Assembly: GCA_964019135.1 (NCBI GenBank)
Contig: OZ025248.1
Location: 75,398,119 to 75,462,118 of the forward strand
Direction: 5' to 3'
Length of the DNA stretch: 64,000 nt
Source: Arenicola marina
Lineage: Eukaryota; Annelida; Polychaeta; Arenicolidae
Part shown: positions 1,150-58,100 of the stretch, in pieces
How positions within the stretch are numbered: position 1 is the first letter of the stretch
Layout: each line of letters begins with the position of its first letter
Program-made: the position numbers and the translations under genes
The notes under the pieces: model-generated
Seen by the model: the letters and a program-made list of their open reading frames with translations, nothing else
Database searches by the model: none
Told to the model about the DNA's origin: nothing

Positions 1150-4100
1150 CTGCCAACGACAAGACACGAGAGGCGTCAGCGGCCACACGGCACACGGCGC
1201 CATAGCAACGTCCAGCTTAATACCCCACGACATGGATTATTGTATTCCATGCGAGGCTTGATTAATACGTGAGCTGTACGACCAGACAGGAATCACAGGC
1301 ACAACAGGATAGGAATCAACATCAAACAGGGCTCATCTGTTGTCAAGGCTTCATGCGCTCAATCTCACAGAACATACTATATAATGTATCCCATATAACG
1401 TGTATGCAATACTTCCTGTTTATCTACAATCCTAAACGAATCTACACTACTTTACCCACATGTCATAGTTGTCATCCTTTGTCAATGTCACTTGCGCTTG
1501 ATCTCATTTCACGATTACCCAGCATGCCATGTCACTGCGCACATGTGCTACACGCAGTACTCACCTTACCAGTACAGTTCCTCACTCAGTTGTGCTACAG
1601 AAGTATCCCTATACTTTCAGATTTCCCACTAAGCGTTGAGACTGCTGACGAAGCGTTTAGTAAGGTCTACGAAGATGGCATCTGGTGCTCTGCCAATGCA
1701 CCAGCACGTGTATTGTTTGTGGAACGTTCCCAAGCCTACCTCCAGTATTCCATGGACAACTGTTTTCATGGCGTCGTCTTCAGGATACGGCAAGTGGAGG
1801 ACGGCAAAGTGACGCTGCAATCACCATAGCATTATCAATAACAAGTTTCACTCGATCGTAAATGTACGAAGCTTTTGTTACCTACTAGTAATTCTCTATT
1901 TGCAAACAATACATGACAATAAAAATGACAACAAAAGCGATTAAGTATCATACGATGTGACAATGTTTGCAATTCCCATAACTGAAGGAAAAAGTGAAAC
2001 AGAAAGAAAACAGAATTTCACAATACTACAAAAGGAATCACGCTTGTTGTCTCGTGCTACGACTGAAACACGTGATAGTGAGTTACCTACTTTACATCGC
2101 ATTTTACTAGGCGGCACACCACACTGGAGCGGATCGAAATGCCTTAATACCGATAACTCACCAGTAGTCTTGGCGACAGGACTCTGTCAGTGACACTGGC
2201 ACTGTCACTGAGGTTGACGGCACCCAGGACACTGAGACCCTCGACGGAGCGACATTCGAAGGGTCGTTCCTGTGTGCACAGCACCCCCTCATCCAACAGA
2301 CGCCTCAGCAACTGCAACAGAGACAACCCCAAAAATCACATACTTAGGCAATGTGAGGCATATCCAGTGTCGTGTGGGACTCCATTTCTCAATAACTAGA
2401 TAGAAGAAATTATTCGCTACAATTTCAATTCATGTCATTCAGTCAAGTCGTGTACACGCGAATATTGTCGTCGGTATCAAGTCGTGCACACGCGAATATT
2501 GTCCTCGGTATCAAGTCGTGCCCACGCGAATATTGTCGTCGGTATCAAGTCGTGTACACGCTAATGCTGTTATCGGTACCAAGTCGTATATACGCGAATA
2601 TTGTTTTCGGTATCAAGTCGTGTACACGGGAATATTGTCTTTAGTCGTATACACGCGAATATTGTCCTCGGTATCAAGTCGTATATACGCGAATATTGTT
2701 TTCGGTATCAAGTCGTGCACACGCGAATATTGTCGTCGGTATCAAGTCGTGTACACGCTAATGCTGTTATCGGTATCAAGTCGTATATACGCGAATATTG
2801 TTTTCGATATCAAGTCGTGTACACGGGAATATTGTCTTTAGTCGTATACACGCGAATATTGTCCTCGGTATCAAGTCGTATACACGCGAATATTGTCCTC
2901 GGTATCAAGTCGTGTACACGCTAATGTTGTCATCGGTATTTAAGTCGTGTACACGCTAATGTTGTCATCGGTATTTAAGTCGTGTACACGCTAATGTTGT
3001 CATCGGTATTTAAGTCGTGTACACGCTAATGTTGTCACCGGTTTGAAGTCGTGTACACGCTAGTCTGCAAGGAAACAGTGATGTTTTAGCAGGGCCAAAA
3101 ATGCAGTTATTAATTGAATAGATGGAATACATAAATCTCAAGGAATGTGTCATGTCGTTGTTTGTGAATAAAAACACATTATTCAAGAACCTTTCTGTGA
3201 AGCGATCTGTCTAACTTAAGATAAATCAAGATGCCATGTCCTTCTTCACAGGGAGCAGAGGGTTACCCCCAGAAACATGGCTCCTCTCTTACCTTGACAG
3301 TTCTCATTTTGGCGATATGACCTGCACAGCTTGGTTAAAAGCGTCCTATTTACAATATCGATCCCCCACGCTAACACACTGGTTGTAGGCATACCTCGTT
3401 GCACCTCTGTACGCCGTGGTCGTCATAGCCCGGCAGGTTGAGGTCGTCGATGAACAACTGAAGCTTCTTGTTGTCCTTGGCGCCGTACACATAGCCTAAA
3501 ACACAGAGCGTACACCATCTACATGTACAGTACATATAGCCTACAACACAGAGCGTACACCATCGACATGTACAGTACACAGCCTACAACACAGAGCGTA
3601 CACCATCTACATGTACAGTACACAGCCTACAACACAGATCGTACACCATCTACATGTACAGTACAGAGCCTACAACACAGAGCGTACACCATCTACATGT
3701 ACAGTACACAGAGCCTACAACACAGAGCGTACACCATCTACATGTATAGTACACAGAGCCTACAACACACTGTGTACACCATCGACATGTACAGTACACA
3801 GCCTACAACACAGAGCGTACACCATCGACATGTACAGTACACAGCCTACAACACAGAGCGTACACCATCGACATGTATAGTACACAAAGCCTACAACACA
3901 GCGTACACCATCTACATGTACAGTACACAGAGCCTACAACACAGAGCGTACACCATCTACATGTATAGTACACAGAGCCTACAACACACTGTGTACACCA
4001 TCGACATGTACAGTACACAGCCTACAACACAGAGCGTACACCATCTACATGTACAGTACACAGAGCCTACAACACAGAGCGTACACCATCTACATGTATA

Positions 4101-7100
4101 GTACACAGAGCCTACAACACACTGTGTACACCATCGACATGTACAGTACACAGAGCCTACAACACAGCGTACACCATCTACATGTACAGTACACAGTCTA
4201 CAACACAGAGCGTACACCATCTACATGTACAGTACACAGCCTACAACACAGAGCGTACACCATCTACATGAACAGTACACAGCCTACAACACAGAGCGTA
4301 CACCATCTACATGTACAGTACACAAAGCCTACAACACAGAGCGTACACCATCTACATGTACAGTACACAGCCTACAACACAGCGTGCACCATCGACATGT
4401 CAGTACACAGAGCCTACAACACAGAGCGTACACCATCTACATGAACAGTACACAGCCTACAACACAGAGCGTACACCATCGACATGTACAGTACACAGAG
4501 CCTACAACACACTGTGTACACCATCGACATGAACAGTACAAAGAGCCTACAACACGGAGCGTACACCATCGACATGTACAGTACACATAGCCTACAACAC
4601 AGAGCGTACACCATCTACATGTACAGTACACAGAGCCTACAACACAGAGCGTACACCATCTACATGAACAGTACACAGCCTACAACACAGAGCGTACACC
4701 ATCTACATGTACAGTACACAAAGCCTACAACACAGAGCGTACACCATCTACATGTACAGTACACAGCCTACAACACAGCGTGCACCATCTACATGTACAG
4801 TACACAGCCTACAACACAGAGCGTACACCATCTACATGTACAGTACACAAAGCCTACAACACAGAGCGTACACCATCTACATGTACAGTACACAGCCTAC
4901 AACACAGCGTGCACCATCTACATGTACAGTACACAGCCTACAACACAGAGCGTACACCATCTACATGTACAGTACACAGCCTACAACACAGCGTGCACCA
5001 TCTACATGTACAGTACACAGCCTACAACACAGAGCGTACACCATCTACATGTACAGTACACAGAGCCTACAACACAGCGTACACCATCTACATGTACAGT
5101 ACACAGAGCCTAGAATACAGAGCGTACACCATCTACATGAACAGTACACAGCCTACAACACAGAGCGTACACCATCTACATGTACAGTACACAGCCTACA
5201 ACACAGAGCGTACACCATCTACATGTACAGTACACAGCCTACAACACAGAGCGTACACCATCGACATGTACAGTACACATAGCCTACAACACAGAGCGTA
5301 CACCATCGACATGTACAGTACACAGCCTAGAACACAGAGCGTACACCATCTACATGTACGGTACACTAAAACCATACACTGAAGAGAGCGTACATCATGT
5401 ACACACAAAGATCGCTGAAGCGAGCGCACACCGTGCACATGAAAAGCGCAGTTATAACCAATGTTATCATGGCCAGTCATCGCAATTCACCATATTGATA
5501 ACGTATCTTCACGCGACGAAGATCAAAGGCATGTGAATCGGTCGACATTGCTTAACATTACTCGCAATGTCCGTGTGTGTTAAATATGCAAAGACAAATA
5601 ATCCGCCATCGCTACAGGCAGAACAAGACTAATTTAAGTGCCTGCCTAGAACACATAACTTCTCAATTATTTACAAGGGGTCTGGTTTCTACAGTAATCC
5701 ATAAACATATGATCATTATTCTTATTATAACTATAATTACCTTGTCTGTGGTATATATTTGAAGACATGAAGTTGTGGAGTTGCTGGGCGGATGACGATC
5801 TGGAATACACCAATCTCTTCGCCACGTGGCTGGCAGAGTCTGTGCGGGATGATAAATAAAAGGACATGTGTTAATTAACTAGAAACTATCGATAATGATC
5901 GATTGATAATTACCCATACCGCGTATATTAAACACTGCCCTATCAGGGACTATCAGACTCTAGCGATTAAATCGATATTAAAACACAAGATACAAACAAG
6001 AGCTCAGTCAGTAAGGTCGGTATAACTACGTCACGGTCACTGCAGCAACGACGCCAGACTAATGATCCCATACTACTTTCTAATGAAGGACAGTCTGGAT
6101 GGCTGTATACATTCAGGACGTTTTAGCCACTTTTGGTCATATCGCCTCAATGGGAGAAGGAATGGAAGAGTGAAGCCATGTCTCCGGAGGTAAACTACTA
6201 CTCTTTGCGAAGGACATGGGATCTTCATCCTGCGACCACACAGACATGGCCACAGCGGGGCTCGAACCACCGATCCACGTCCCGTTAAGGTCTCAGCTGG
6301 CCAGAGGAAGGTCTGTCTGTCGCCAGCCTTAAAGCTGCTTCTAGATACAATAACCGGTTGGACTGCAGCGATCTCACTGCCTGTCGACCCCCAGGTCTCC
6401 CTTATCCTACTAAGAAGATAACATGGCAAGCTGCATAATCCTTGGTCCCGAGATCAATCCAGGGAGAAGCTCAGTGTTTAAGCTGACTGAGCTACGGCTC
6501 AACAGGTTGTGGGTTCGCACCTTGGCAGACATATGACGCATGTTTCATTCAATTCCATTACTCAATTGTCCCGAGAAAATGTGGTTAAAGTGTCCTGAAT
6601 ACACAACCAACCATTAATTATCCCTGAGAGCTTTCTGGGCCCCGTTTACCCCACATATATAACAACAAAGTGGCTTAGAACACCATCACGTCCTGAGTCA
6701 CTTCAGACCGGATGACTCTCCAGAGGTCAGTCTGTCGGTCCAGGTCCGGTTGGTACATCACCTTGGGTGTCCAGGAAGTCGTTGATCATGGACGTCTTTC
6801 CGGATCCGGGGGGTCCAGTCAGCAGGACGTTCTGACCCGAGGAGCAGGCGAACTCCATCAACATCCGGGTCCGGATCTGAACAGGTAGAGAGGGTAGGGG
6901 GTCTGTGTGAACAACAGGCTGACAGAGATCAGGAGGGGGTCTGTGTGAACAACAGGCTGACAGAGATCAGGAGGGGGTCTGTGTGAACAACAGGCGGGCA
7001 GAGATCAGGAGAGGGTCTGTGTGAACAACAAGCGGACAGAGATCAGAAGGCGGTCTGTGTGAACAACAGGCGGACAGAGATCAGGGAGGGGGGGGGGGTC

Positions 7101-10100
7101 TGTGTGAACAACAGGTGGACAGAGATCAGGGAGGGGGGGGGCTGTGTGAACAACAGGCGGACAAAGATCAGGGAGGGGGGGTGTCTGTGTGAACAACAGG
7201 CGGACAGAGATCAGGACGGGGTCTGTGTGAACAACAGGCGGACAGAGATCAGGAGGGGGTCTGTGTGAACAACAGGCGGACAGAGACCAGGAGGGGGTCT
7301 GTGTGAACAACAGGCGGACAGAGACCAGGAGGGGGTCTGTGTGAACCACAGGCGGACAGAGATCAGGAGGAGGTCTGTGTGAACAAGAGGCGGACAGAGA
7401 CCAGGAGGGGGTCTGTGTGAACAACAGGCGGACAGAGACCAGGAGGGGGTCTGTGTGAACAACAGGCGGACAGAGACCCGGAGGGGGTCTGTGTGAACAA
7501 CAGGCGGACAGAGATCAGGAGGGGGTCTGTGTGAACAACAGGCGGACAGAGATCAGGAGAGGGTCTGTGTGAACAACAGGCGGACAGAGACCAGGAGGGG
7601 GTCTGTGTGAACAACAGGCGGACAAAGATCAGGAGGGGGTCTGTGCGAACAACAGGCGGACAGAGATCAGGAGAGGGTCTGTGTGAACAACAGGCGGACA
7701 GAGACCAGGAGGGGGTCTGTGTGAACAACAGGCGGACAGAGATCAGGAGGGGGTCTGTGTGAACAACAGGCGGACAGACACCAGGAGAGGGTCTGTGTAA
7801 ACCACAGGCGGACAGAGACCAGGAGGGGGTCTGTGTGAACAACAGGCGGACAGAGACCAGGAGGGGGTCTGTGTGAACCACAGGCGGACAGAGACCAGGA
7901 GGGGGTCTGTGTGAACAACAGGCGGACAGAGATCAGGAGGGGGTCTGTGTGAACAACAGGCGGACAGAGACCGGGAGAGGGTCTGTGTGAACCACAGGCG
8001 GACAGAGACCAGGAGGGGGTCTGTGTGAACAACAGGCGGACAGAGACCAGGAGGGGGTCTGTGTGAACAACAGGCGGACAGAGATCAGGAGAGGGTCTGT
8101 GTGAACAACAGGCGGACAGAGATCAGGAGGGGGTCTGTGTGAACAACAGGCGGACAGAGATCAGGAGGGGGTCTGTGTGAACAACAGGCGGACAGAGATC
8201 AGGAGGGGGTCTGTGTGAACAACAGGCGGACAGAGACCAGGAGGGGGTCTGTGTGAACAACAGGCGGACAGAGACCAGGAGGGGGTCTGTGTGAACCACA
8301 TGCGGACAGAGATCAGGAGGAGGTCTGTGTGAACAAGAGGCGGACAGAGACCAGGAGGGGGTCTGTGTGAACAACAGGCGGACAGAGACCAGGAGGGGGT
8401 CTGTGTGAACAACAGGCGGACAGAGACCCGGAGGGGGTCTGTGTGAACAACAGGCGGACAGAGATCAGGAGGGGGTCTGTGTGAACAACAGGCGGACAGA
8501 GATCAGGAGAGGGTCTGTGTGGACAACAGGCGGACAGAGACCAGGAGGGGGTCTGTGTGAACAACAGGCGGACAAAGATCAGGAGGGGGTCTGTGTGAAC
8601 AACAGGCGGACAGACACCAGGAGAGGGTCTGTGTGAACCACAGGCGGACAGAGACCAGGAGGGGGTCTGTGTGAACCACAGGCGGACAGAGACCAGGAGG
8701 GGGTCTGTGTGAACAACAGGCGGACAGAGATCAGGAGGGGGTCTGTGTGAACAACAGGCGGACAGAGACCGGGAGAGGGTCTGTGTGAACCACAGGCGGA
8801 CAGAGACCAGGAGGGGGTCTGTGTGAACAACAGGCGGACAGAGACCAGGAGGGGGTCTGTGTGAACAACAGGCGGACAGAGATCAGGAGAGGGCCTGTGT
8901 GAACAACAGGCGGACAGAGACCAGGAGGGGGTCTGTGTGAACAACAGGCGGACAGAGATCAGGAGGGGGTCTGTGTGAACAACAGGCGGACAGAGACCAG
9001 GAGAGGGTCTGTGTGAACCACAGGCGGACAGAGACCAGGAGGGGGTCTGTGTGAACAACAGGCGGACAGAGATCAGGAGGGGGTCTGTGTGAAGTGCAGG
9101 CGGACAGAGACCAGGAGGGGGTCTGTGTGAACAAGAGGCGGACAGAGATCAGAAGAGGGGTCTGTGTGAACAACAGGCGGACAGAGACCAGGAGAGGGTC
9201 TGTGTTAACCACAGGCGGACAGAGACCAGGAGGGGGTCTGTGTGAACAACAGGCGGACAGAGACCAGGAGGGGGTCTGGGCGAACAAGAGGCGGACAGAG
9301 ACCAGGAGGGGGTCTGTGTGAACCACAGGCGGACAGAGACCAGGAGGGGGTCTGTGTGAACAACAGGCGGACAGAGACCAGGAGGGGGTCTGTGTGAACA
9401 ACAGGCGGACTGAGACCAGGAGGGGGTCTGTGTGAACCACAGGCGGACAGAGACCAGGAGGGGGTCTGTGTGAACCACAGGCGGACAGAGACCAGGAGGG
9501 GGTCTGTGTGAACCACAGGCGGACAGAGACCAGGAGGGGGTCTGTGTGAACAACAGGCGGACAGAGACCAGGAGGGGGTTTGTGTGAACCACAGGCGGAC
9601 AGAGACCAGGAGGGGGTCTGTGTGAACCACAGGCGGACAGAGACCAGGAGGGGGTCTGTGTAAACCACAGGCGGACAGAGACCAGGATGGGGTCTGTGTG
9701 AACCACAGGCGGACAGAGACCAGCATGGGGTCTGTGTGAACCACAGGCGGACAGAGACCAGGAGGGGGTCTGTGTGAACAACAGGCGGACAGAGACCAGG
9801 AGGGGGTCTGTGTGAAGTGCAGGCGGACAGAGACCAGGAGGGGGTCTGTGTGAACCACAGGCGGACAGAGACCAGGAGGGGGTCTGTGTGAACAACAGGC
9901 GGACAGAGACCAGGAGGGGGTCTGTGTGAACAACAGGCGGACAGAGACCAGGAGGGAGTCTGTGTGAACAACAGGCGGACAGAGACCAGGAGACGGTCTG
10001 TGTGAACAACAGGCGGACAGAGACCAGGATGGGGTCTGTGTGAACAACAGGCGGACAGAGACCAGAAGGGGGTCTGTGTGAACAACAGGCGGACAGAGAC

Positions 10101-13100
10101 CAGGAGGGGGTCTGTGTGAACAACAGGCGGACAGAGACCAGGATGGGGTCTGTGTGAACCACAGGCGGACAGAGACCAGGAGGGGGTCTGTGTGAACCAC
10201 AGGCGGACAGAGACCAGGAGGGGGTCTGTGTGAACCACAGGCGGACAGAGACCAGGAGGGGGTCTGTGTGAACCACAGGCGGACAGAGACCAGGATGGGG
10301 TCTGTGTGAACCACAGGCGGACAGAGACCAGGAGGGGGTCTGTGTGAACCACAGGCGGACAGAGACCAGGAGGGGGTCTGTGTGAACAACAGGCGGACAG
10401 GGACCAGGAGGGGGTCTGTGTGAACAACAGGCGGACAGAGACCAGGAGGGGGTCTGTGTGAACCACAGGCGGACAGAGACCAGGAGGGGGTCTGTGTGAA
10501 CAACAGGCGGACAGAGACCAGGAGGGGGTCTGTGTGAACAACAGGCGGACAGAGACCAGGAGGGGGTCTGTGTGAACAACAGGCGGACAGAGATCAGGAG
10601 AGGGTCTTTGTGAACAACAGGCGGACAGATCCCAGGAGGGGGTCTGTGTGAACAACAGGCGGACAGAGATCAGGAGGGGGTCTGTGTGAACAACAGGCGG
10701 ACAGAGACCAGGAGAGGGTCTGTGTGAACCACAGGCGGACAGAGACCAGGAGGGGGTCTGTGTGAACAACAGGCGGACAGAGACCAGGAGGGGGTCTGTG
10801 TGAAGTGCAGGCGGACAGAGACCAGGAGGGGGTCTGTGTGAACCACAGGCGGACAGAGATCAGAAGAGGGGTCTGTGTGAACAACAGGCGGACAGAGACC
10901 AGGAGAGGGTCTGTGTTAACCACAGGCGGACAGAGACCAGGAGGGGGTCTGTGTGAACAACAGGCGGACAGAGACCAGGAGGGGGTCTGTGCGAACAAGA
11001 GGCGGACAGAGACCAGGAGGGGGTCTGTGTGAACCACAGGCGGACAGAGACCAGGAGAGGGTCTGTGTTAACCACAGGCGGACAGAGACCAGGAGGGGGT
11101 CTGTGTGAACCACAGGCGGACAGAGACCAGGAGGGGGTCTGTGCGAACAAGAGGCGGACAGAGACCAGGAGGGGGTCTGTGTGAACCACAGGCGGACAGA
11201 GACCAGGAGGGGGTCTGTGTGAACAACAGGCGGACAGAGACCAGAAGGGGGTCTGTGTGAACAACAGGCGGACAGAGACCAGGATGGGGTCTGTGTGAAC
11301 AACAGGCGGACAGAGACCAGGAGGGGGTCTGTGCGAACAACAGGCGGACAGAGACCAGGAGGGGGTCTGTGTGAACCACAGGCGGACAGAGACCAGGAGG
11401 GGGTCTGTGTGAACAACAGGCCGACAGAGACCAGGAGGGGGTCTGTGTGAACAACTGGCGGACAGAGACCAGGATGGGGTCTGTGTGAACCACAGGCGGA
11501 CAGAGACCAGGAGGGGGTCTGTGTGAACCACAGGCGGACAGAGACCAGGAGGGGGTCTGTGTGAACCACAGGCGGACAGAGACCAGGAGGGGGTCTGTGT
11601 GAACAACAGGCGGACAGAGACCAGGAGGGGGTCTGTGTGAACCACAGGCGGACAGAGACCAGGAGGGGGTCTGTGTGAACCACAGGCGGACAGAGACCAG
11701 GAGGGGGTCTGTGTGAACCACAGGCGGACAGAGACCAGGATGGGGTCTGTGTGAACCACAGGCGGACAGAGACCAGGATGGGGTCTGTGTGAACCACAGG
11801 CGGACAGAGACCAGGAGGGGGTCTGTGTGAACAACAGGCGGACAGAGACCAGGAGAGGGTCTGTGTGAACAACAGGCGGACAGAGACCAGGAGGGGGTCT
11901 GTGTGAACCACAGGCGGACAGAGACCAGGAGGGGGTCTGTGTGAACAACAGGCGGACAGAGACCAGGAGGGGGTCTGTGCGAACAACAAGCGGACAGAGA
12001 CCAGGAGGGAGTCTGTGTGAACAACAGGCGGACAGAGACCAGGAGGGGGTCTGTGTGAACAACAGGCGGACAGAGACCAGGATGGGGTCTGTGTGAACAA
12101 CAGGCGGACAGAGACCAGAAGGGGGTCTGTGTGAACAACAGGCGGACAGAGACCAGGATGGGGTCTGTGTGAACCACAGGCGGACAGAGACCAGGATGGG
12201 GTCTGTGTGAACCACAGGCGGACAGAGACCAGGAGGGGGTCTGTGTGAACCACAGGCGGACAGAGACCAGGAGGGGGTCTGTGTGAACCACAGGCGGACA
12301 GAGACCAGGATGGGGTCTGTGTGAACGACAGGCGGACAGAGACCAGGATGGGGTCTGTGTGAACCACAGGCGGACAGAGACCAGGAGGGGGTCTGTGTGA
12401 ACAACAGGCGGACAGAGACCAGGAGGGGGTCTGTGTGAACAACAGGCGGACAGAGACCAGGAGGGGGTCTGTGTGAACCACAGGCGGACAGAGACCAGGA
12501 GGGGGTCTGTGCGAACAACAGGCGGACAGAGACCAGGAGGGGGTCTGTGTGAACAACAGGCGGACAGAGACCAGGAGGAGGTCTGTGTGAACAACAGGCG
12601 GACAGAAATCAGGAGAGGGTCTTTGTGAACAACAGGCGGACAGAGACCAGGAGGGGGTCTGTGTGAACAACAGGCGGACAGAGATCAGGAGGGGGTCTGT
12701 GTGAACAACAGGCGGACAGAGACCAGGAGAGGGTCTGTGTGAACCACAGGCGGACAGAGACCAGGAGGGGGTCTGTGTGAATAACAGGCGGACAGAGACC
12801 AGGAGGGGGTCTGTGTGAAGTGCAGGCGGACAGAGACCAGGAGGGGGTCTGTGTGAACAAGAGGCGGACAGAGATCAGAAGAGGGGTCTGTGTGAACAAC
12901 AGGCGGACAGAGACCAGGAGAGGGTCTGTGTTAACCACAGGCGGACAGAGACCAGGAGGGGGTCTGTGTGAACAACAGGCGGACAGAGACCAGGAGGGGG
13001 TCTGTGCGAACAAGAGGCGGACAGAGACCAGGAGGGGGTCTGTGTGAACCACAGGCGGACAGAGACCAGGAGGGGGTCTGTGTGAACAACAGGCGGACAG

Positions 13101-46100: not shown

Positions 46101-49100
46101 TGAAGATACGTAATTTTCAGAATCACGACTTCAATAATTCAAGTTTTACTTATAGCGACCTTTAGAGCAGATAAGCGTTTGCATTAAACTGCCACACCCA
46201 GACAAAAAACGGGCCGGCCCGGTACCTCAGTGGGTTAGAGCGCTCGCCTTGATGAGTGCTCTGGCCATCTGAGAGCCTAACGGCACGTGGATCGATCGTT
46301 CGAGCCCCGCTGTGGCCATGTCTGTGTGGTCGCAGGATAAAGATCCCATGTATTTCTTCGTTTAGAATAAGGCGTTACCTCCGGGGACATGGCTCCACTC
46401 TCCCTTCCTTCTCCCATTGACGCGATATGACCGTAAGTCGTTAAAGCGTCCTGAATATACAACCCACAAACCCAGACAGGAAGATTGATACCTGTTGTCC
46501 ATCGCCCAGGTAGCAGTACTCCTGCTTGGCCTTCACTGCTCCCAAGATGGCGGCCGTGTGGTCGATCAGCACCGAGCGGCCGGCATCATTCAGCAGGTGG
46601 ACGTCATCAAAACAGCCCCAGCTACCGTCCTGGCGGCACAGCAAACGGTGTTAGAGCTAGGAGACATTTCTTACATTAAACCTTTCTTACAAGGACAATC
46701 AAATCAAATCATGTATATTTGATATTATTTCGGTGCGAACAAAAAAGACGACAGTTCATGTACACGGGACGCCGCCCTGATTTCATTTGATTAGATTTGA
46801 TTTGATTTGGTTTTAAGAACACCGCCACGAAATAACTGCATAAAGAAACGCAATAATTTCGTCGGAAAGACGTCGGCGATATCAGTATAGTGTTCCAGAA
46901 AATATTTGTTTTTCAATTTCAAATTCCGAGTTTTCGTCACAAATTGTAGGTATCCCAATAGCGATATTAAGGTAGGTTTACCATGGCCAGCCCCTGGAGG
47001 ACCTTGCCGAGACTGGTGGAATTGGAATTGGCAGCACATTGGAAGAGGACCAGGAAGCGACCCATCGTGTGACCGAACGCCTGAAACACAACATAGAGCG
47101 GAATAGACAGCAGTAACCAAGCAACGATAACATCATAACACCCACTCTTTGTTTTGATATATTATATCTTAAACTATATATATGAAAATTATATGATGCT
47201 TATAACAATTAATATAATGATGTTTATAGAAAATAATGTTAATTATAAACAAAATTATATTACATTTATTAAACAATGATACAATGATATTTATGAAAAT
47301 AATATGATATTTATAGAATAATATAATGATATACATAAGAATAATATAATAATATTTATAAGCATAACATAATGATATTTATAAGAATAATATAATGAGT
47401 TATAAAAATCAAATAATGATATTTATAAACAAAGTTATAAATGATTACTTATGGAGACCAGGCCAGATTATCGCTCTCACCTTGATGGTCTCAGTCTTGC
47501 CGACCCCGGGCTGGCCGCTGAGCATGGCCCCCTGACCCTGACTCATGGCTTGGCACATAGACAGGAAGCACTTGTCGGTGGTGCTGGTCTGGCCGGCCAC
47601 GGGCGGCGCGCCGTAGAACTCGCAGCCGTACGTGTATGGCTGCTCCAGCACGTAGAACCGGGGGCACGGCTTGCCATCTGGTGAGCGACACGGGTTGGTT
47701 GTATATTCAGGACTTTAACCACTTTTGGTCATATCGCGTCAATGGGAGAAGGAAGGCAGAGTGGAGCCATGTCCCCGGTGGTAACCCCCTATTCTTTGAG
47801 AAGAAGGACATGGGATCTTTATCCAGGGACCACACAGGCATGGTCAGAGCGGGGCTCGAACCACCGATGCACGCGCCGTTAGGCTCTCAGGTGGCCAGAA
47901 CACTCAAGGCGAGCGCTCTAACCCACTGAGCTATCGAGCCGACCCCGGGTGACACGGGGAAAGGGACAGCTATAGTATCATCGTCTGTACATCTACAGGG
48001 TGAGTCAGAATAATTTTACAATTTTAAACTGCTTGAAACACTACAAAGTACCAAACATAAGAAATTAATACAGATTGAAACTGAACTGAGATCTCCAATT
48101 GTTTTCATTCTCCTAAATTATCCAAAATCAGAAATACAGGCCGAGGAGCCTTACTTACCCTCTTGGCGGACATACAGGCCGAGGGTCCTTACTTACCCTC
48201 TTGGCGGACATACAGGCCGAGGGTCCTTACTTACCCTCTTGGCGGACATACAGGCCGAGGGTCCTTACTTACCCTCTTGGCGGACATACAGGTCGAGGAT
48301 CTTTACTTACCCTCTTAGCGGACATACAGGCCGAGGGTCCTTACTTACCCTCTTGGCGGACATACAGACCGAGGATCCTTATATACCCTCTTGGCGGACA
48401 TACACGCCGAGGATCCTTACTTACCCTCTTGGCGGACATACAGGCCGAGGATCCTTACTTACCCTCTTGGCGGACATACAGGCCGAGGGTCCTTACTTAC
48501 CCTCTTGGCGGACATACAGGCCGAGGGTCCTTACTTACCCTCTTGGCGGACATACAGGCCGAGGGTCCTTACTTACCCTCTTGGCGGACATACAGGCCGA
48601 GGATCCTTACTTACCCTCTTGGCGGACATACAGGCCGAGCATCCTTACTTACCCTCTTGGCGGACATACAGGCCGAGGGTCCTTACTTACCCTCTTGGCA
48701 GACATACAGGTCGAAGATCCTTACTTACCCTCTTGGCGGACATACAGGCCGAGGATCCTTACATACCCTCTTGGCCGACATACAGGCCGAGGATCCTTAC
48801 TTACCCTTTTGGCGGACATACAGGCCGAGGAGCCTTACTTACCCTCTTGGCGGACATACAGGCCGAGGATCCTTACTTACCCTCTTGGCGGACATACAGT
48901 CCGAGGATCCTTACATACCCTCTTGGCCGACATACAGGCCGAGGATCCTTACTTACCCTCTTGGCGGACATACAGTCCGAGGATCCTTACATACCCTCTT
49001 GGCCGACATACAGTCCGAGGATCCTTACTTACCCTCTTGGCGGACATACAGGCCGAGGATCCTTACTTACCCTCTTGGCGGACATACAGGCCGAGGATCC

Positions 49101-52100
49101 TTACATACCCTCTTGGCCGACATACAGGCCGAGGATCCTTACTTACCCTTTTGGCGGACATACAGGCCGAGGAGCCTTACTTACCCTCTTGGCGGACATA
49201 CAGGCCGAGGATCCTTACTTACCCTCTTGGCGGACATACAGTCCGAGGATCCTTACATACCCTCTTGGCCGACATACAGGCCGAGGATCCTTACTTACCC
49301 TCTTGGCGGACATACAGTCCGAGGATCCTTACATACCCTCTTGGCCGACATACAGTCCGAGGATCCTTACTTACCCTCTTGGCGGACATACAGGCCGAGG
49401 ATCCTTACTTACCCTCTTGGCGGACATACAGGTCGAGGATCCTTACATACCCTCTTGGCCGACATACAGGCCGAGGATCCTTACATACCCTCTTGGCGGA
49501 CATACAGGCCGAGGATCCTTACTTACCCTCTTGGCGGACATACAGGCCGAGGGTCCTTACTTACCCTCTTGGCGGACATACAGGCCGAGGATCCTTACTT
49601 ACCCTCTTGGCGGACATACAGGCCGAGGATCCTTACATACCATCTTGGCGGACATACAGGCCGAGGGCCCTTACTTACCCTCTTGGCGGACATACAGGCC
49701 GAGGATCCTTACTTACCCTCTTGGCGGACATACAGGCCGAGGATCCTTACTTACCCTCTTGGCGGACATACAGGCCGAGGGCCCTTACTTACCCTTTTGG
49801 CGGACATACAGGCCGAGGATCCTTACTTACCCTCTTGGCGGACATACAGGCCGAGGATTCTTACTTACCCTCTTGGCCGACATACAGGCCGAGGATCCTT
49901 ACATACCCTCTTGGCGGACATACAGGCCGAGGATCCTTACTTACCCTCTTGGCGGACATACAGGCCGAGGGTCCTTACTTACCCTCTTGGCGGACATACA
50001 GGCCGAGGATCCTTACTTACCCTCTTGGCGGACATACAGGCCGAGGATCCTTACATACCCTCTTGGCGGACATACAGGCCGAGGGCCCTTACTTACCCTC
50101 TTGGCGGACATACAGGCCGAGGGCCCTTACTTACCCTCTTGGCGGACATACAGGCCGAGGATCCTTACTTACCCTCTTGGCGGACATACAGGCCGAGGAT
50201 CCTTACTTACCCTCTTGGCGGACATACAGGCCGAGGGCCCTTACTTACCCTTTTGGCGGACATACAGGCCGAGGATCCTTACTTACCCTCTTGGCGGACA
50301 TACAGGCCGAGGATTCTTACTTACCCTCTTGGCCGACATACAGGCCGAGGATCCTTACATACCCTCTTGGCGGACATACAGGCCGAGGATCCTTACTTAC
50401 CCTCTTGGCGGACATACAGGCCGAGGGTCCTTACTTACCCTCTTGGCGGACATACAGGCCGAGGATCCTTACTTACCCTCTTGGCGGACATACAGGCCGA
50501 GGATCCTTACATACCCTCTTGGCGGACATACAGGCCGAGGGTCCTTACTTACCCTCTTGGCGGACATACAGGCCGAGGATCCTTATATACCCTCTTGGCG
50601 GACATACAGGCCGAGGATCCTTACTTACCCTCTTGGCGGACATACAGGCCGAGGATCCTTACATACCCTCTTGGCGGACATACAGGCCGAGGGTCCTTAC
50701 TTACCCTCTTGGCGGACATACAGGCCGAGGGTCCTTACTTACCCTCTTGGCGGACATACAGGCCGAGGATCCTTACTTACCCTCTTGGCGGACATACAGG
50801 CCGAGGATCCTTACTTACCCTCTTGGCGGACATACAGGCCGAGGATCCTTACTTACCCTCTTGGCGGACATACAGGCCGAGGGCCCTTACTTACCCTTTT
50901 GGCGGACATACAGGCCGAGGATCCTTACTTACCCTCTTGGCGGACATACAGGCCGAGGATCCTTACTTACCCTCTTGGCGGACATACAGGCCGAGGATCC
51001 TTACTTACCCTCTTGGCGGACATACAGGCCGAGGATCCTTACATACCCTCTTGGCGGACATACAGGCCGAGGGTCCTTACTTACCCTCTTGGCGGACATA
51101 CAGGCCGAGGATCCTTACTTACCCTCTTGGCGGACATACAGGCCGAGGATCCTTACATACCCTCTTGGCGGACATACAGGCCGAGGGTCCTTACTTACCC
51201 TCTTGGCGGACATACAGGCCGAGGATCCTTACTTACCCTCTTGGCGGACATACAGGCCGAGGATTCTTACTTACCCTCTTGGCCGACATACAGGCCGAGG
51301 ATCCTTACATACCCTCTTGGCGGACATACAGGCCGAGGATCCTTACTTACCCTCTTGGCGGACATACAGGCCGAGGGTCCTTACTTACCCTCTTGGCGGA
51401 CATACAGGCCGAGGATCCTTACTTACCCTCTTGGCGGACATACAGGCCGAGGGTCCTTACTTACCCTCTTGGCGGACATACAGGCCGAGGATCCTTACTT
51501 ACCCTCTTGGCGGACATACAGGCCGAGGATCCTTACTTACCCTCTTGGCGGACATACAGGCCGAGGATCCTTACTTACCCTCTTGGCGGACATACAGGCG
51601 GAGGTTTCTTCTCCATTCAAAGTCCGTGCTCTCTCGTAGTTTCCTGGTTCCCAGGTTATCGATTGTGTCCCGCAAGAACGAGGATTGCTGGAAAGAAATC
51701 CACATCAATAATCTATTTGAAAAAAATATTAATTACATGCAAATGTTACGGCAGTACATGTAATAATATTTGACATATTATTTGTATTCGCACTACTGTA
51801 AAGATGCAATAACTTATTGAACACTTGTTTAAAAACGCAACCGTTTTAAGACAAGAGGGGCGAAACTGAAAAAGGTTATACATATTAAACATTTGAATTA
51901 AGATATAAATATAGAAATCACAATTTCGTATTCCTTATATTCATTACATCTCATTACGTCTCATGACCTTATGGTCTGGTATAGACATAATTACATACAT
52001 AAACCAACAAACAAGTATCTAACTAAACATGGCCTGGCATGTCCTACCGTGATCATGTTTTCTATCCTGAGGCGGTGTTTAGGCTGGAGCGGCTCTTCCA

Positions 52101-55100
52101 CCGCGCGGTAGGCCCCCCTCCCCAGCAGGGACGGCAGCTTGGTGACGAAGGTGGCGAAGCGACGGCTGAGGCCGGCCAGCGCCTTGCGGTCGTACTTGAG
52201 TTCGGCCACTGCCAGCTCACACTCCCGGGTCCAGTAGTACAGCAGACCCAGGCGACACACCTGGGTGCAGTACTGCAAACACAACACGGAAACAAGCATA
52301 GCTATATAGCCATCGGGTATATGTTTAGGCGTTTTTTACAAATTAAATACATAATTTTAATAATAATAAAGTTTTAAATATGAATTGCTATTTATTTTTA
52401 TTTATTTCTTTACTCTTATTTAATCGAATATTACTTAGTTTTTATATATTTAAATTTTGTCTGATTTCGTAATTTATCTGACCGATATATAACTTGGCGT
52501 CTAATGTTAAGGTTTACGAAGTGATGCCGTACGCATCGCCGTGTGGCCGTGCCACCCACCTTGTAGGTCCACTCCTACCCACCTTGTAGGTCCACTCCTA
52601 CCCACCTTGTAGGTCCACTCCTACACACCTTGTAGGTCAAGTCCTACCCACCTTGTAGATTCACCCCTACCCACCTTGTACGGCCACTCCTACCCACCTT
52701 GTAGGTCCACTCCTACCCACCTTGTAGGTCCACTCCTACCCACCTTGTAGGTACACTCCTACCCACCTTGTAGGTCAAGTCCTACCCACCTTGTAGGTCC
52801 ACTCCTACCCACCTTGTAGGTCCACTTTTACCCACCTTGTAGGTGTCCACTCCTACCCACCTTGTAGGTCCACCCCTACCCACCTTGTAGGTACACTCCT
52901 ACCCACCTTGTAGGTCCACTTCTACCCACCTTGTAGGTCCATTCCTACCCACCTTGTAGGTCAAGTCCTACCCACCTTGTAGGTCCACCCCTACCCACCT
53001 TGTAGGTCCACCTCTACCCACCTTGTAGGTCCACTCCTACCCACCTTGTAGGTACACTCCTCCCCATCTTGTAGGTCCACTTCTACCCACCTTGTAGGTC
53101 CACTCCTACACACCTTGTAGGTCCACTCCTACACACCTTGTAGGTACACTTCTCCCCATATTGTAGGTCCACTCCTACACACCTTGTACGGCCACTCCTA
53201 CCCACCTTGTAGGTACACTCCTACCCACCTTGTAGGTCCACTCCTACCCACCTCGTAGGTTTACTCCTACCCACCTTGTAGGTCAAGTCCTACCCACCTT
53301 GTAGGTCCACTCCTACCCACCTTGTAGGTCCACTTTTACCCACCTTGTAGGTCCACTCCTACCCACCTTGTAGGTCCACTCCTACCCACCTTGTAGGTCC
53401 ACCCCTACCCACCTTGTAGGTACACTCCTACCCACCTTGTAGGTCCACTCCTACCCACCTTGTAGGTCAAGTCCTACCCACCTTGTAGGTCCACCCCTAC
53501 CCACCTTGTAGGTCCACCCCTACCCACTTTGTAGGTCCACTCCTACCAACCTTGTAGGTACACTCCTCCCCATCTTGTAGGTCCACTCCTACCCACCTTG
53601 TAGGTCCACTCCTACCCACCTTGTAGGTACACTCCCACCCACCTTGTAGGTCCACTCCTACCCACCTTGTAGGTACACTCCTCCCCATCTTGTAGGTCCA
53701 CTCCTACACACCTTGTAGGTACACTCCTCCCCATCTTGTAGGTCCACTCCTACCCACCTTGTAGGTCCACCCCTACCCACCTTGTAGGTACACTCCTCCC
53801 CATCTTGTAGGTCCACTCCTACACACCTTGTACGGCCACTCCTACACACCTTGTAGGTACACTTTTACCCACCTTGTAGGTCCACCCCTACCCACCTTGT
53901 AGGTCCACTCCTACACACCTTGTACGGCCACTCCTACACACCTTATAGGTACACTCCTACCCACCTTGTAGGTCCACCCCTACCCACGTTGTAGGTACAC
54001 TCCCACCCACCTTGTAGGTCCACCCCTACCCACCTTGTAGGTACACTCCTCCCCACCTTGTAGGTCCACTCCTACACACCTTGTACGGCCACTCCTACAC
54101 ACCTTGTAGGTACACTCCTACCCACCTTGTAGGTCCACCCCTACCCACGTTGTAGGTACACTCCCACCCACCTTGTAGGTCCACCCCTACCCACCTTGTA
54201 GGTACACTCCTCCCCACCTTGTAGGTCCACTCCTACACACCTTGTAGGTCCACTCCTACCCACCTTGTAGGTCCACCCCTACCCACCTTGTAGGTACACT
54301 CCTCCCCACCTTGTAGGTCCACTCCTACCCACCTTGTAGGTACACTCCCACCCACCTTCTAGGTCCACCCCTACCCACCTTGTAGGTCCACCCCTACCCA
54401 CCTTGTAGGTACACTCCTCCCCACCTTGTAGGTCCACTCCTACCCACCTTGTAGGTACACTCCCACCCACCTTATAGGTCCACCCCTACCCACCTCGTAG
54501 GTCCACCCCTACCCACCTTGTAGGTACACTCCTCCCCATCTTGTAGGTCCACTCCTACACACCTTGTAGGTACACTCCCACCCACCTTCTAGGTCCACCC
54601 CTACCCACCTTGTAGGTCCACCCCTACCCACCTTGTACGGCCACTCCTACCCACCTTGTAGGTCCACTCCTACCCACCTTGTAGGTCCACTCCTACCCAC
54701 CTTGTAAGTCCACCCCTACCCACCTTGTAGGTACACTCCTCCCCACCTTGTAGGTCCACTCCTACCCATCTTGTAGGTCCACTCCTACCCACCTTGTAGG
54801 TACACTCCCACCCACCTTGTAGGTCCACTCCTACCCACCTTGTAGGTACACTCCTCCCCATCTTGTAGGTCCACTCCTACACACCTTGTAGGTACACTCC
54901 TCCCCATCTTGTAGGTCCACTCCTACCCACCTTGTAGGTCCACCCCTACCCACCTTGTAGGTACACTCCTCCCCATCTTGTAGGTCCACTCCTACACACC
55001 TTGTACGGCCACTCCTACACACCTTGTAGGTACACTTTTACCCACCTTGTAGGTCCACCCCTACCCACCTTGTAGGTCCACTCCTACACACCTTGTACGG

Positions 55101-58100
55101 CCACTCCTACACACCTTGTAGGTACACTCCTACCCACCTTGTAGGTCCACCCCTACCCACGTTGTAGGTACACTCCCACCCACCTTGTAGGTCCACCCCT
55201 ACCCACCTTGTAGGTACACTCCTCCCCACCTTGTAGGTCCACTCCTACACACCTTGTACGGCCACTCCTACACACCTTGTAGGTACACTCCTACCCACCT
55301 TGTAGGTCCACCCCTACCCACCTTGTAGGTACACTCCTCCCCACCTTGTAGGTCCACTCCTACACACCTTGTAGGTCCACTCCTACCCACCTTGTAGGTA
55401 CACTCCCACCCACCTTCTAGGTCCACCCCTACCCACCTTGTAGGTCCACCCCTACCCACCTTGTAGGTACACTCCTCCCCACCTTGTAGGTCCACTCCTA
55501 CCCACCTTGTAGGTACACTCCCACCCACCTTATAGGTCCACCCCTACCCACCTCGTAGGTCCACCCCTACCCACCTTGTAGGTACACTCCTCCCCATCTT
55601 GTAGGTCCACTCCTACACACCTTGTAGGTACACTCCCACCCACCTTCTAGGTCCACCCCTACCCACCTTGTAGGTCCACCCCTACCCACCTTGTACGGCC
55701 ACTCCTACCCACCTTGTAGGTCCACTCCTACCCACCTTGTAGGTCCACTCCTACCCACCTTGTAAGTCCACCCCTACCCACCTTGTAGGTACACTCCTCC
55801 CCACCTTGTAGGTCCACTCCTACCCACCTTGTAGGTACACTCCCACCCACCTTCTAGGTCCACCCCTACCCACCTTGTAGGTCCACCCTTACCCACCTTG
55901 TAGGTACACTCCTCCCCATCTTGTAGGTCCACTCCTACACACCTTGTAGGTCCACTCCTACACACCTTGTAGGTACACTCCCACCCACCTTCTAGGTCCA
56001 CCCCTACCCACCTTCTAGGTCCACCCCTACCCACCTTGTAGGTCCACCCCTACCCACCTTGTAGGTACACTCCTCCCCATCTTGTAGGTCCACCCCTACC
56101 CACCTTGTAGGTACACTCCTCCCCATCTTGTAGGTCCACCCCTACCCACCTTGTAGGTCCACTCCTACACACCTTGTAGGTCCACTCCTACACACCTTGT
56201 AGGTCCACCCCTACCCACCTTGTAGGTCCACTCCTCGCAGGCCACGCCGCTCCGGACGTCCTCCGTGATCCCGATGAGCTGTGTCTGGATCGCCTCCGCC
56301 AGGGACTGCCGCAGCCTGTCCAGCCACTGCTCCACGCCGTCAGACAGCGACACCTGGCGACCAGAAACACACGATCTCATTGGAAAGGACATGCTGGGTG
56401 TTTTTATGTCAGTTTTGTACACATAAAGGACCAAGAAACGTCCCGGGTCAACGGTACTGGGTTGAATGAAACTTAGCCCAGATCCAGGTGTCAGGGCTCG
56501 AACCTACGACCTCGTGATCGGCAGCTCAGCTTGCTTACCAGTTTCACTTAGACCAAGACAAAATGTGACTTGATGTTTTAAGCCAGTTTTGTGCACATGA
56601 AGGTTAAACTGGGTCCAGAATGCTCCAAACTCAGCAGGTTTTGCGGTGGCGGTGGTTACAAGTGCCCAACACGGCCAAAAATACCAACATTTCGTTGCTA
56701 TTGAGGAGGTTGATTTTGTCTTTGTTACCTTGTCATTGAGCGTGACCACTTCGCCCTGACTACTGGTGACGGCGTAGGCGTCCAGGGCTGGGGCCTCCTC
56801 CCGTAGCAGCTCGGAGGGCAGCGTGACCGACGGGTACTGGGACATGGTGCTGTGGTTCACGGTCTGCAACGTGGGAACCATGGCCAGCAGTTACAGGCAT
56901 GTGAGTGACTCCAGCAGTGCGAGCGACTCCAGCAGTGCGTGTGGCAGGCTAGCGCTTCCACCCAGTATTCATGTATACTCCAGTCATAAATAAGCAACGT
57001 GGAATAATCATTGAACTGCATCTACAATAACCAAATATATTGGTGTCCTACAAATCATTCCATTACGTTTACTAATTCATTCATATGAAGTAATTGTGTA
57101 CCTAACTAACTATAAAGTTAAAACGTACAAACATTCCAAGAAATCGTTCTCTCTCTTCCATAGATATGTGTTACTGCATCGCAATTGTATTGATCACATT
57201 TATCACAAGAGAAAAAAGTGTTAGAAATGAAAATGTGAAACACCTTGAGCATAGAGTGAAAGATTAAGGGACTTAATTAGCACAAAACCCTTCATCCATT
57301 CAATGACATGCAGTTAAAATTCACACGAAACCACTAAAACGTTCAAACTGACATTATAAAGGCAACTTCTCCTTTATAGTATCTTCAGCAAAGGTGTTGC
57401 GAAAAAAAAATAAGCCTCTGTCATTCCGAACTTCTATGAAAACAAAGCAAGTTTGCAAAACTTTAACCAATCTTATGGAGTAAATATAAGTAAAAAGATG
57501 AATATCGACAGCCCGCAGACTATAATAGTTCGCCAATATCGACTCTAGTTTAACCAGTGACGCGTTTCCGGTTCCGTAATCAGACCAGAGAACACGCTCT
57601 GGTGTCTCCGGATTTGCGGGACGGATGTGCGCCATGTTGGACGTAGTGAGTTCGTTTTGACAGAACCAGACATGCGTGCTAGATATTTCGCAGTTAAGAC
57701 TATAGTCCACACCCGAAGTCGCTGACAGACGCGATATGTGACCACTGGGCAGTACGAATACAATCACATCCCAACGGAAGCGGTGAAATATATTGACAAT
57801 GTGCACCTTCCCCATAATGAAAATACCCTTGGGCGGTGCATTTTCACATCCCATTAAACGTGTCTTAATTTCTAAACAAATAACACACTTCGATATTGTT
57901 CCAAGGTCTTTAATGCGACATCCCGAATCAGTTCTGCATGCCATGAGAAGGCACTGATTAATTACGTTTCTTAATCCAGCAACTTGTATTTTTCCATTCC
58001 ATGCCAGGAAAAAGAACCATACTTATGCCGCTCGTAACATAAATACATTCCTTAGTTCAAATTACGCGACTAACTTGTCGAAAGATATTGGCATTAAATG

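Follow-up and report, generated by a model that had tools for sequence, protein, structure and literature searches.

Four minisatellites in a dynein heavy-chain gene of the polychaete Arenicola marina are built from the splice junctions that they adjoin: each repeat unit carries the edge of the neighbouring exon together with its splice site. The arrays are very probably minisatellites of the mirage type known from amphioxus, which arose as independent duplications of junctions and expanded later, with the exon-proximal splice site in use.

The host gene is a DNAH5-like axonemal dynein heavy chain

The window, a 64,000-nt stretch of contig OZ025248.1 (assembly GCA_964019135.1), represents one haplotype and contains part of a DNAH5-like gene for an axonemal dynein heavy chain, on the minus strand; all features given below lie on that strand. 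The gene model has 31 exons and 1482 codons without a stop, and all of its introns are GT-AG. Exon ends are predicted from the reading frame, from homology and from the splice consensus. The predicted protein matches the Pfam families DHC_N2 (4e-77) and AAA_6 (9.4e-59), and the domains PF08393, PF12774, PF12775 and PF17852 identify it as a dynein heavy chain. DNAH5 is the best PDB match by E-value (5.9e-193). A search of the window against Rfam gave no match at the gathering threshold.

Four arrays are built from real splice junctions

Two of the arrays span donors. A 23-bp array (52554..56235, ~160 copies) extends 17 bp into exon 8 (56219..56353, 135 nt, donor AAG/GTGGGT), and its units contain the exon 8 end and the donor. 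A 38-bp array (48134..51604, ~91 copies) likewise extends 26 bp into exon 10 (51579..51687, 109 nt, donor AGG/GTAAGT) and contains the exon end and the donor. Both exons have an open frame. The DNAH5 alignment crosses the exon 8/9 join without a gap; it is also gapless at the exon 10/11 join, with a 2-residue gap a few residues further on.

The other two arrays carry acceptors in their units. Specifically, a 67-bp array (38909..40094, 17.7 copies) reaches 29 bp into exon 19 (38851..38937, 87 nt), and a 43/45-bp array (3489..5366, ~43 copies) reaches 7 bp into exon 28 (3395..3495, 101 nt). Exon 19 is placed by the open-frame model and by the DNAH5 alignment, which has a 2-residue gap just past the exon 18/19 join; exon 28 is placed by the open-frame model. 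Exonic overlaps were measured on the array bounds called by Tandem Repeats Finder (TRF), and unit counts come from wrap-around alignment; an earlier fuzzy pattern search had found only 22, 34, 10 and 11 units, respectively.

The first-pass annotation, made from the sequence alone, had proposed that the units at these four junctions hold the exon edge and the splice site, and the TRF overlaps bear this out. At all four, the unit contains exon and intron sequence across the boundary, as mirages do. Copies of the exon end in the exon's own adjoining intron reach the test floor (p 0.005) at 6 of 60 junctions, namely the donors of exons 1, 8 and 10 and the acceptors of exons 17, 19 and 28. When only the exon side is matched, the arrays at exons 8, 10 and 19 rank their own junction first of 62. 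The exon 28 array ranks its own junction fourth of 62, because the copied part of the exon is short. With full-window matching, the arrays at the exon 5 donor, the exon 17 acceptor and the exon 24 donor also rank their own junction first, in a test that is partly circular, since array sequence forms part of the junction window wherever an array spans the junction.

Units of different arrays have no evident common sequence and look like the products of separate events, as the annotation had maintained. Within arrays, the likeness of units to the exon-containing unit is about equal far from and near the exon, with a slight fall in the exon 10 array, which fits homogenisation. By eye, the flanks of the exon 8 array show no microhomology, and the two ends of the exon 10 array match at 12 of 13 positions.

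Long arrays are difficult to assemble, and the PGBD5 repeats of the lancelet are reported to differ in copy number between two genome versions (PMC3902484), as might be expected if arrays were inflated or invented by repeat mis-assembly. Such an artefact is extremely unlikely here: the arrays are not one copy repeated, with 37 distinct units of 160 at exon 8, 22 of 91 at exon 10, 8 of 17 at exon 19 and 18 of 43 at exon 28, and the reading frame is intact throughout the gene model.

Arrays at exons 17, 24 and 26 are related to their junctions to different degrees

A 67-bp array in intron 16 (42595..43325) ends 16 bp from the acceptor of exon 17 (42365..42578, 214 nt, open-frame model), and the unit matches that junction on the intron side. 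Past the far end of the array, ~780 bp before the true acceptor, lies a copy of the exon 17 start (43345..43367) that comprises AG and the exon's first 14 bases. This displaced copy, which had been noted before, was recovered with p at the test floor; the likeness of the intron sequence upstream of both sites was judged by eye.

The 12-bp array at the exon 24 donor (32248..33113) is a borderline case. It begins at the donor, where the TRF call includes 8 bp of exon, and its intron side matches the junction; its exon side alone ranks only sixth of 62 junctions.

The largest array, of 38-bp units (6896..31326, ~642 copies, 24.4 kb), ends 19 bp before the acceptor of exon 26. Its resemblance to that junction holds for acceptor-likeness and fails for shared sequence. 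Specifically, when AGs were scored with leave-one-out matrices against the gene's median acceptor as threshold, 586 of 656 in the array scored at least as high as that median, and the commonest array unit scored 7.3 versus 5.8 for the real exon 26 acceptor. No homology of the unit to its own junction, which ranks 19th of 62, was found in the junction-match tests. As controls, 35 of 799 AGs in unique intron sequence were as strong as the median acceptor, and the other 20 arrays (without those at exons 19 and 26) each had 0 to 4 such AGs in sense. In the exon 8 array, read on the antisense strand, 92 of 155 AGs are that strong by accident, and a single acceptor-like array before exon 26 may be accidental as well.

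Two short repeats also lie over donors. A two-copy 17-bp repeat (63848..63877) straddles the donor of exon 1 and a two-copy 24-bp repeat (43555..43590) that of exon 16; both are possible newborn cases.

Many decoy splice sites are strong by score, and almost all would break the frame

The four junction-derived arrays contain 308 decoy sites. Of these, 293 keep GT or AG, the splice signals that mirage copies also carry, and 219 match or outscore the real site. At exon 8, GT is kept in 144 of 159 decoys and 101 equal or exceed the real donor in score; at exon 10, all 90 keep GT and 71 reach the real donor. All 17 decoys at exon 19 keep AG, and 12 match or outscore the real acceptor. All 42 at exon 28 keep AG too, and 35 reach the real acceptor, which is weak; only 3 reach the gene's median acceptor score.

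Strong sites in such numbers, together with the 586 further acceptor-like sites before exon 26, would be expected if the arrays were functional and their repeated donors and acceptors fed regulated alternative splicing. There is a precedent in the human IFI6 minisatellite, downstream units of which are taken as donors (PMC4526556). Against this, 292 of the 293 canonical decoys would, if used, cause a frame shift or an added stop; the sole exception, in the exon 28 array at +45 nt, would keep an open frame. Moreover, 15 of the 159 exon 8 decoys, in units scattered along the array, have lost the splice dinucleotide, which is barely better kept there than the other columns of the unit (mean minor frequency 0.047 versus 0.072). 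A functional role is thus quite improbable. Comparison of the dinucleotide with other unit columns gave no clear sign of selection on the decoys in either direction. The earlier expectation that a duplication across a junction leaves the mRNA unchanged when the exon-proximal site is used agrees with the frame analysis, in which almost only that choice keeps the frame. Recursive splicing was also considered and judged unlikely, since inspection by eye revealed no pyrimidine tract ahead of the donor in the donor units.

Arrays crowd near junctions

Whether arrays favour junctions was assessed on 22 arrays with a TRF score of 50 or more and a period of 10 or more, after manual merging of overlapping and neighbouring rows; a 5-bp array at 46778-46813 was excluded. 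Arrays were either placed anywhere or kept in their own intron, giving two nulls. Junctions are spanned by 5 of 22 arrays, against null means of 2.60 (anywhere, p 0.10) and 3.63 (own intron, p 0.28). If an array counts as spanning only when it holds 7 or more exonic bp, the null probability is 0.14 for four or more spanning arrays, 0.044 for five or more and 0.011 for six or more. At up to 10 bp from a junction the count is again 5 of 22 (p 0.22 and 0.50, respectively). In contrast, 11 of 22 arrays lie within 20 bp of a junction (null 4.03, p 0.0006, anywhere; 5.52, p 0.0064, own intron) and 14 of 22 within 40 bp (p 0.0004 and 0.0006), at cut-offs chosen post hoc, once the distances were known. 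The non-spanning arrays alone show the same tendency, with 6 of 17 within 20 bp at the same post hoc cut-off (p 0.013). In a smaller set of 19 arrays, with minor TRF loci left out, p was 0.05 for spanning and 0.00025 for lying within 20 bp. A further null, which forbade overlap with exons, gave far smaller p-values and was discarded, because it rules out spanning by construction.

Unique sequence amounts to 152 to 640 bp in 23 of 30 introns, and array units measure 12 to 94 bp. Because unique intron sequence is so short relative to such units, chance alone would let ~2 to 4 of the 22 arrays span a junction, and the first-pass claim that a boundary would rarely be caught up in an intronic duplication by chance was overstated. 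The spanning count is therefore marginal against chance; the crowding near junctions is the better evidence for a junction bias.

These numbers bear on where the arrays were born. Minisatellites may have arisen all over the introns, with exonic ones purged by selection and some left straddling junctions as unique intron sequence is short. The spanning count and the count within 10 bp fit this account, as do the two-copy repeats in unique sequence, which show no junction preference (2 of 17 spanning, null mean 3.42); the crowding within 20 and 40 bp, including that of the non-spanning arrays, speaks against it. We regard chance plus selection as a serious possibility, somewhat short of an even chance. 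It is compatible with the mirage anatomy of the arrays and denies junctions a role in their births.

Alternatively, junctions may be preferred birthplaces of minisatellites, through the junction sequence itself or through a break linked to transcription or splicing. Introns would then grow mainly by recopying their own ends, and the exon 26 array would be an extreme, diverged case. The absence of a junction preference among two-copy repeats lowers the standing of this account and raises that of chance plus selection, and we hold the birthplace account to be rather unlikely.

Proposed origin and significance

Mirage-type duplication, which we favour for the four arrays, would proceed as follows. 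A short tandem duplication over a splice junction would have occurred independently at four junctions (or at five if exon 17 is counted, and six if exon 24 is too). Slippage, unequal exchange or gene conversion would then have multiplied the copies, and the units of any one array would have been homogenised. Splicing presumably keeps to the site closest to the body of the exon, leaving the protein unchanged, and all other copies would become intron, as silent and probably neutral decoys. Choice of the proximal site would probably depend on exon definition and, for donors, also on the order of transcription.

The gene is a natural experiment on how splice sites are chosen. A single true donor stands beside 90 or 159 copies, many of them equally strong by score; one true acceptor lies downstream of 17 or 42 copies, and 586 acceptor-like sites accompany that of exon 26. 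If RNA bears out use of the proximal site, the acceptor cases would favour exon definition over choice of the first AG. The crowding statistic is simple and can be applied to whole genomes. Should junctions prove to be birthplaces, introns would grow largely by copying their own ends over and over.

Comparison with known systems

The Drosophila genes kl-3 and kl-5 code for dynein heavy chains. Like those of the gene studied here, their introns are swollen by tandem repeats: they are giant introns filled with satellite (PMC6508621). These introns are of megabase size and consist of satellite DNA, and the abstract of that report makes no mention of splice-junction copies. In human segmental-duplication genes, exons and introns have been lengthened by minisatellites with units of ~30 bp, and some of the expansions turn on cryptic splice sites and give rise to new introns (PMC2812944). 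Those arrays have ~4 repeats on average, lie in recent paralogues and are half coding, and junction copies are not described in the text available from that source. Likewise, the available parts of PMC12783039, PMC8724738 and PMC4476131 describe no junction-spanning arrays.

In the model of Rogers, tandem duplication of AGGT makes a new intron from exon sequence (PMC4974935). Splice signals are duplicated in tandem there as in the dynein gene; in the latter, existing introns have probably grown. In human IFI6 (G1P3), a minisatellite at an exon end provides several splice donors (PMC4526556, citing Turri 1995). Its downstream units are used and yield isoforms, whereas nearly all of the dynein decoys would break the frame.

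The closest parallels are found in amphioxus. Although the first-pass annotation knew of no description of a gene with many such arrays, tandem repeats over exon-intron boundaries have been described there as "mirages" in Adh3, the globins BflGb6 and BflGb9, troponin C and PGBD5 (PMC3087553, PMC3902484). Units of 10-72 bp make up the mirages of Adh3, and those of the globins measure about 150-160 bp; many copies carry AG or GT. According to their authors, data on Adh3 and RT-PCR of the globins point to splicing that is not disturbed (PMC3087553, PMC3902484). Length differences between alleles are a further trait of mirages, and cephalochordates are their only hosts in the descriptions available. 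The anatomy is the same as in the dynein arrays, namely a unit across the exon-intron boundary with splice signals. The described mirages have few copies (3 and 6 in BflGb6; 2 to 7 in PGBD5), in contrast to ~160, 91, 18 and 43 here, where the arrays involve four to six junctions of one gene. The dynein gene thus adds to the known mirages both arrays that reach ~160 copies and the involvement of several junctions in one gene.

Four arrays repeat a splice junction of a dynein gene

The window, 64 kb of eukaryotic DNA with 0 N, carries a partial dynein heavy-chain gene on its minus strand. A 31-exon model, whose exon numbers are those of the first-pass annotation, was drawn up by visual inspection of the sequence, every exon being preceded by AG and followed by GT. 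The joined exons form an open frame of 1482 codons, whose translation contains the Pfam domains DHC_N2, AAA_6, AAA_7, and dynein AAA lid and has DNAH5 as its best PDB match by E-value (5.9e-193). Two inserts, of low complexity by eye, are unmatched in the printed alignment with DNAH5: residues 230–338 (exons 5–7, 60746–56729) and 751–827 (exons 15–16, 44290–43573), both on the minus strand; the remainder is recognisable as dynein. Nineteen TRF regions, merged by hand, cover 42.1 kb of the window.

The real junction lies inside each of four arrays, as the first-pass annotation had read. Specifically, 17 exonic bp fall within the exon 8 donor array (52554–56235, 23-bp unit), 26 within the exon 10 donor array (48134–51604, 38-bp unit), 29 within the exon 19 acceptor array (38909–40094, 67-bp unit), and 7 within the exon 28 acceptor array (3489–5366, 43- or 45-bp unit), all on the minus strand. 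When units were matched against the 62 junctions, each taken with 25 flanking bases in either direction, the own junction was the best match for these four arrays, and likewise for those near the exon 5 donor, exon 17 acceptor, and exon 24 donor; these ranks are partly circular because the junction window includes array sequence. On the exon side alone, the own junction ranks first for exons 8, 10, and 19, fourth for exon 28, sixth for exon 24, and ninth for exon 17. In a fairer test, the 25 exon bases next to each junction were sought in the adjoining intron and compared with windows of other introns; the floor p of 0.005 was reached at 6 of 60 junctions (donors of exons 1, 8, and 10; acceptors of exons 17, 19, and 28).

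Exon 17 adds a fifth case, in altered form: its array ends 16 bp short of the exon. The displaced copy of the exon start noticed earlier is present past its far end, as AG plus the first 14 bases of exon 17, and the intron upstream of this copy resembles that upstream of the real junction over about 50 bp by eye. The simplest reading is that a duplication across the junction came early and that its exon-less part then expanded. The exon 24 donor array begins at the donor, as had been claimed, but is borderline as a junction repeat, with only a few exon bases possible in its unit. Exon 24 itself (33106–33186, 81 nt) has arrays on both flanks, 15 bp before the acceptor and directly at the donor.

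Other repeats are present in the window. An interspersed repeat, located by pattern with at most three mismatches (0 expected from shuffles), has four copies, at 6127–6159, 34561–34593, and 47719–47751 (minus strand) and 46408–46440 (plus strand), and is probably a SINE, with a head that looks tRNA-like. A tRNA-like look is also seen in the unit of a 54-bp array at 37382–38055, for which a Rfam search returned nothing at the gathering threshold. GC-rich degenerate repeats at 63123–63378 stop 20 bp short of the exon 2 acceptor.

Arrays crowd at exon edges

Twenty-two arrays (the 19 merged regions and three smaller ones) were collapsed to one unit each and placed randomly in the gene, wholly exonic placements barred, or, in a second null, confined to their own introns. 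Five of 22 span a junction (null mean 2.60, p = 0.10; own introns 3.63, p = 0.28), so the argument that boundaries would rarely be included by chance fails as stated. If an array must include 7 or more exonic bp to count as spanning, the null probability is 0.14 for four or more arrays, 0.044 for five or more, and 0.011 for six or more, and significance hinges on the inclusion of exons 17 and 24.

The arrays are, however, crowded around exon edges. Five of 22 lie within 10 bp of a junction (p = 0.22; own introns 0.50), 11 within 20 bp (mean 4.03, p = 0.0006; own introns 5.52, p = 0.0064), and 14 within 40 bp (p = 0.0004; own introns 0.0006), with edges as set by TRF, cut-offs picked after the distances were seen, and a small sample of one gene chosen for its striking look. 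Of the 17 arrays that span no junction, six come within 20 bp of one (null mean 2.27, p = 0.013) and none comes within 10 bp (null mean 1.17). Among 17 two-copy repeats of unique sequence, possible newborn arrays although many may be chance matches, two cross a junction (exon 1 and exon 16 donors; null mean 3.42), and the group thus shows no junction bias. That junctions promote the birth of such arrays, rather than merely tolerating them, is doubtful.

The array before exon 26 (6896–31326) fills most of intron 25 with about 642 copies of a 38-bp unit (24.4 kb), and its edge is 19 bp before the acceptor. Of its earlier description as near the junction and resembling it, the acceptor-like AG in most units stands, but shared sequence does not: the own junction ranks 19th of 62 in the 25+25-base comparison, with no homology evident. 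Specifically, 586 of 656 AGs reach the gene's median acceptor score, versus 35 of 799 in unique intron, and the commonest unit scores 7.3 versus 5.8 for the real acceptor. Because 92 of 155 AGs in the antisense exon 8 array, which serves as a control, are acceptor-like by an accident of its unit, this likeness, in one array among 22, is not strong evidence. Identity falls from 0.925 at a one-unit lag to 0.70 at fifteen units, a drop to which small indels may contribute; the exon 10 array, by contrast, stays between 0.958 and 0.965 across its 15 best lags.

Decoy splice sites

Wrap-around alignment of the exon 8, 10, 19, and 28 arrays gives 159, 90, 17, and 42 extra splice-site copies, or decoys (308 in total), of which 144, 90, 17, and 42 (293) keep the canonical GT or AG. 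By a home-made weight matrix built from the gene's other 30 exons, the real site is equalled or outscored by 101, 71, 12, and 35 decoys (219); the real exon 28 acceptor is itself weak, and 3 of its 42 decoys reach the gene's median. When the 293 canonical decoys were put one by one in place of the real site, a single one, at +45 nt in the exon 28 array, kept the frame open; therefore, the gene depends on picking the exon-proximal copy, and we infer that this copy is the one chosen in splicing.

Mean minor frequencies at the splice dinucleotide versus columns outside the splice site are 0.047 versus 0.072, 0.000 versus 0.026, 0.000 versus 0.015, and 0.000 versus 0.039 in the same order, with units within an array non-independent. 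This comparison gives no clear sign of decoy destruction in the four arrays and leans slightly towards decoys being kept rather than lost.

Discussion

The junction arrays are very probably mirage-type minisatellites, "mirage" being the amphioxus term for tandem repeats across an exon–intron boundary. Independent tandem duplications across junctions would have supplied units that later expanded and were homogenised, and the arrays would be tolerated because the proximal splice site stays in use. In the accessible parts of the literature covered, which took in few subscription papers, we found no gene with at least four junction arrays or about 160 copies. As far as the available text of each source goes, amphioxus mirages are described in Adh3 and globin genes (PMC3087553), the references of that paper lead to two further amphioxus loci, and PGBD5 and troponin C are additional cases (PMC3902484). 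Likewise from partial texts, repeat units serve as donors in human IFI6 (PMC4526556), minisatellites lengthen exons and introns of human paralogues and can form introns (PMC2812944), AGGT duplication has been modelled (PMC4974935), and fly kl-3 and kl-5 have giant introns holding satellites (PMC6508621).
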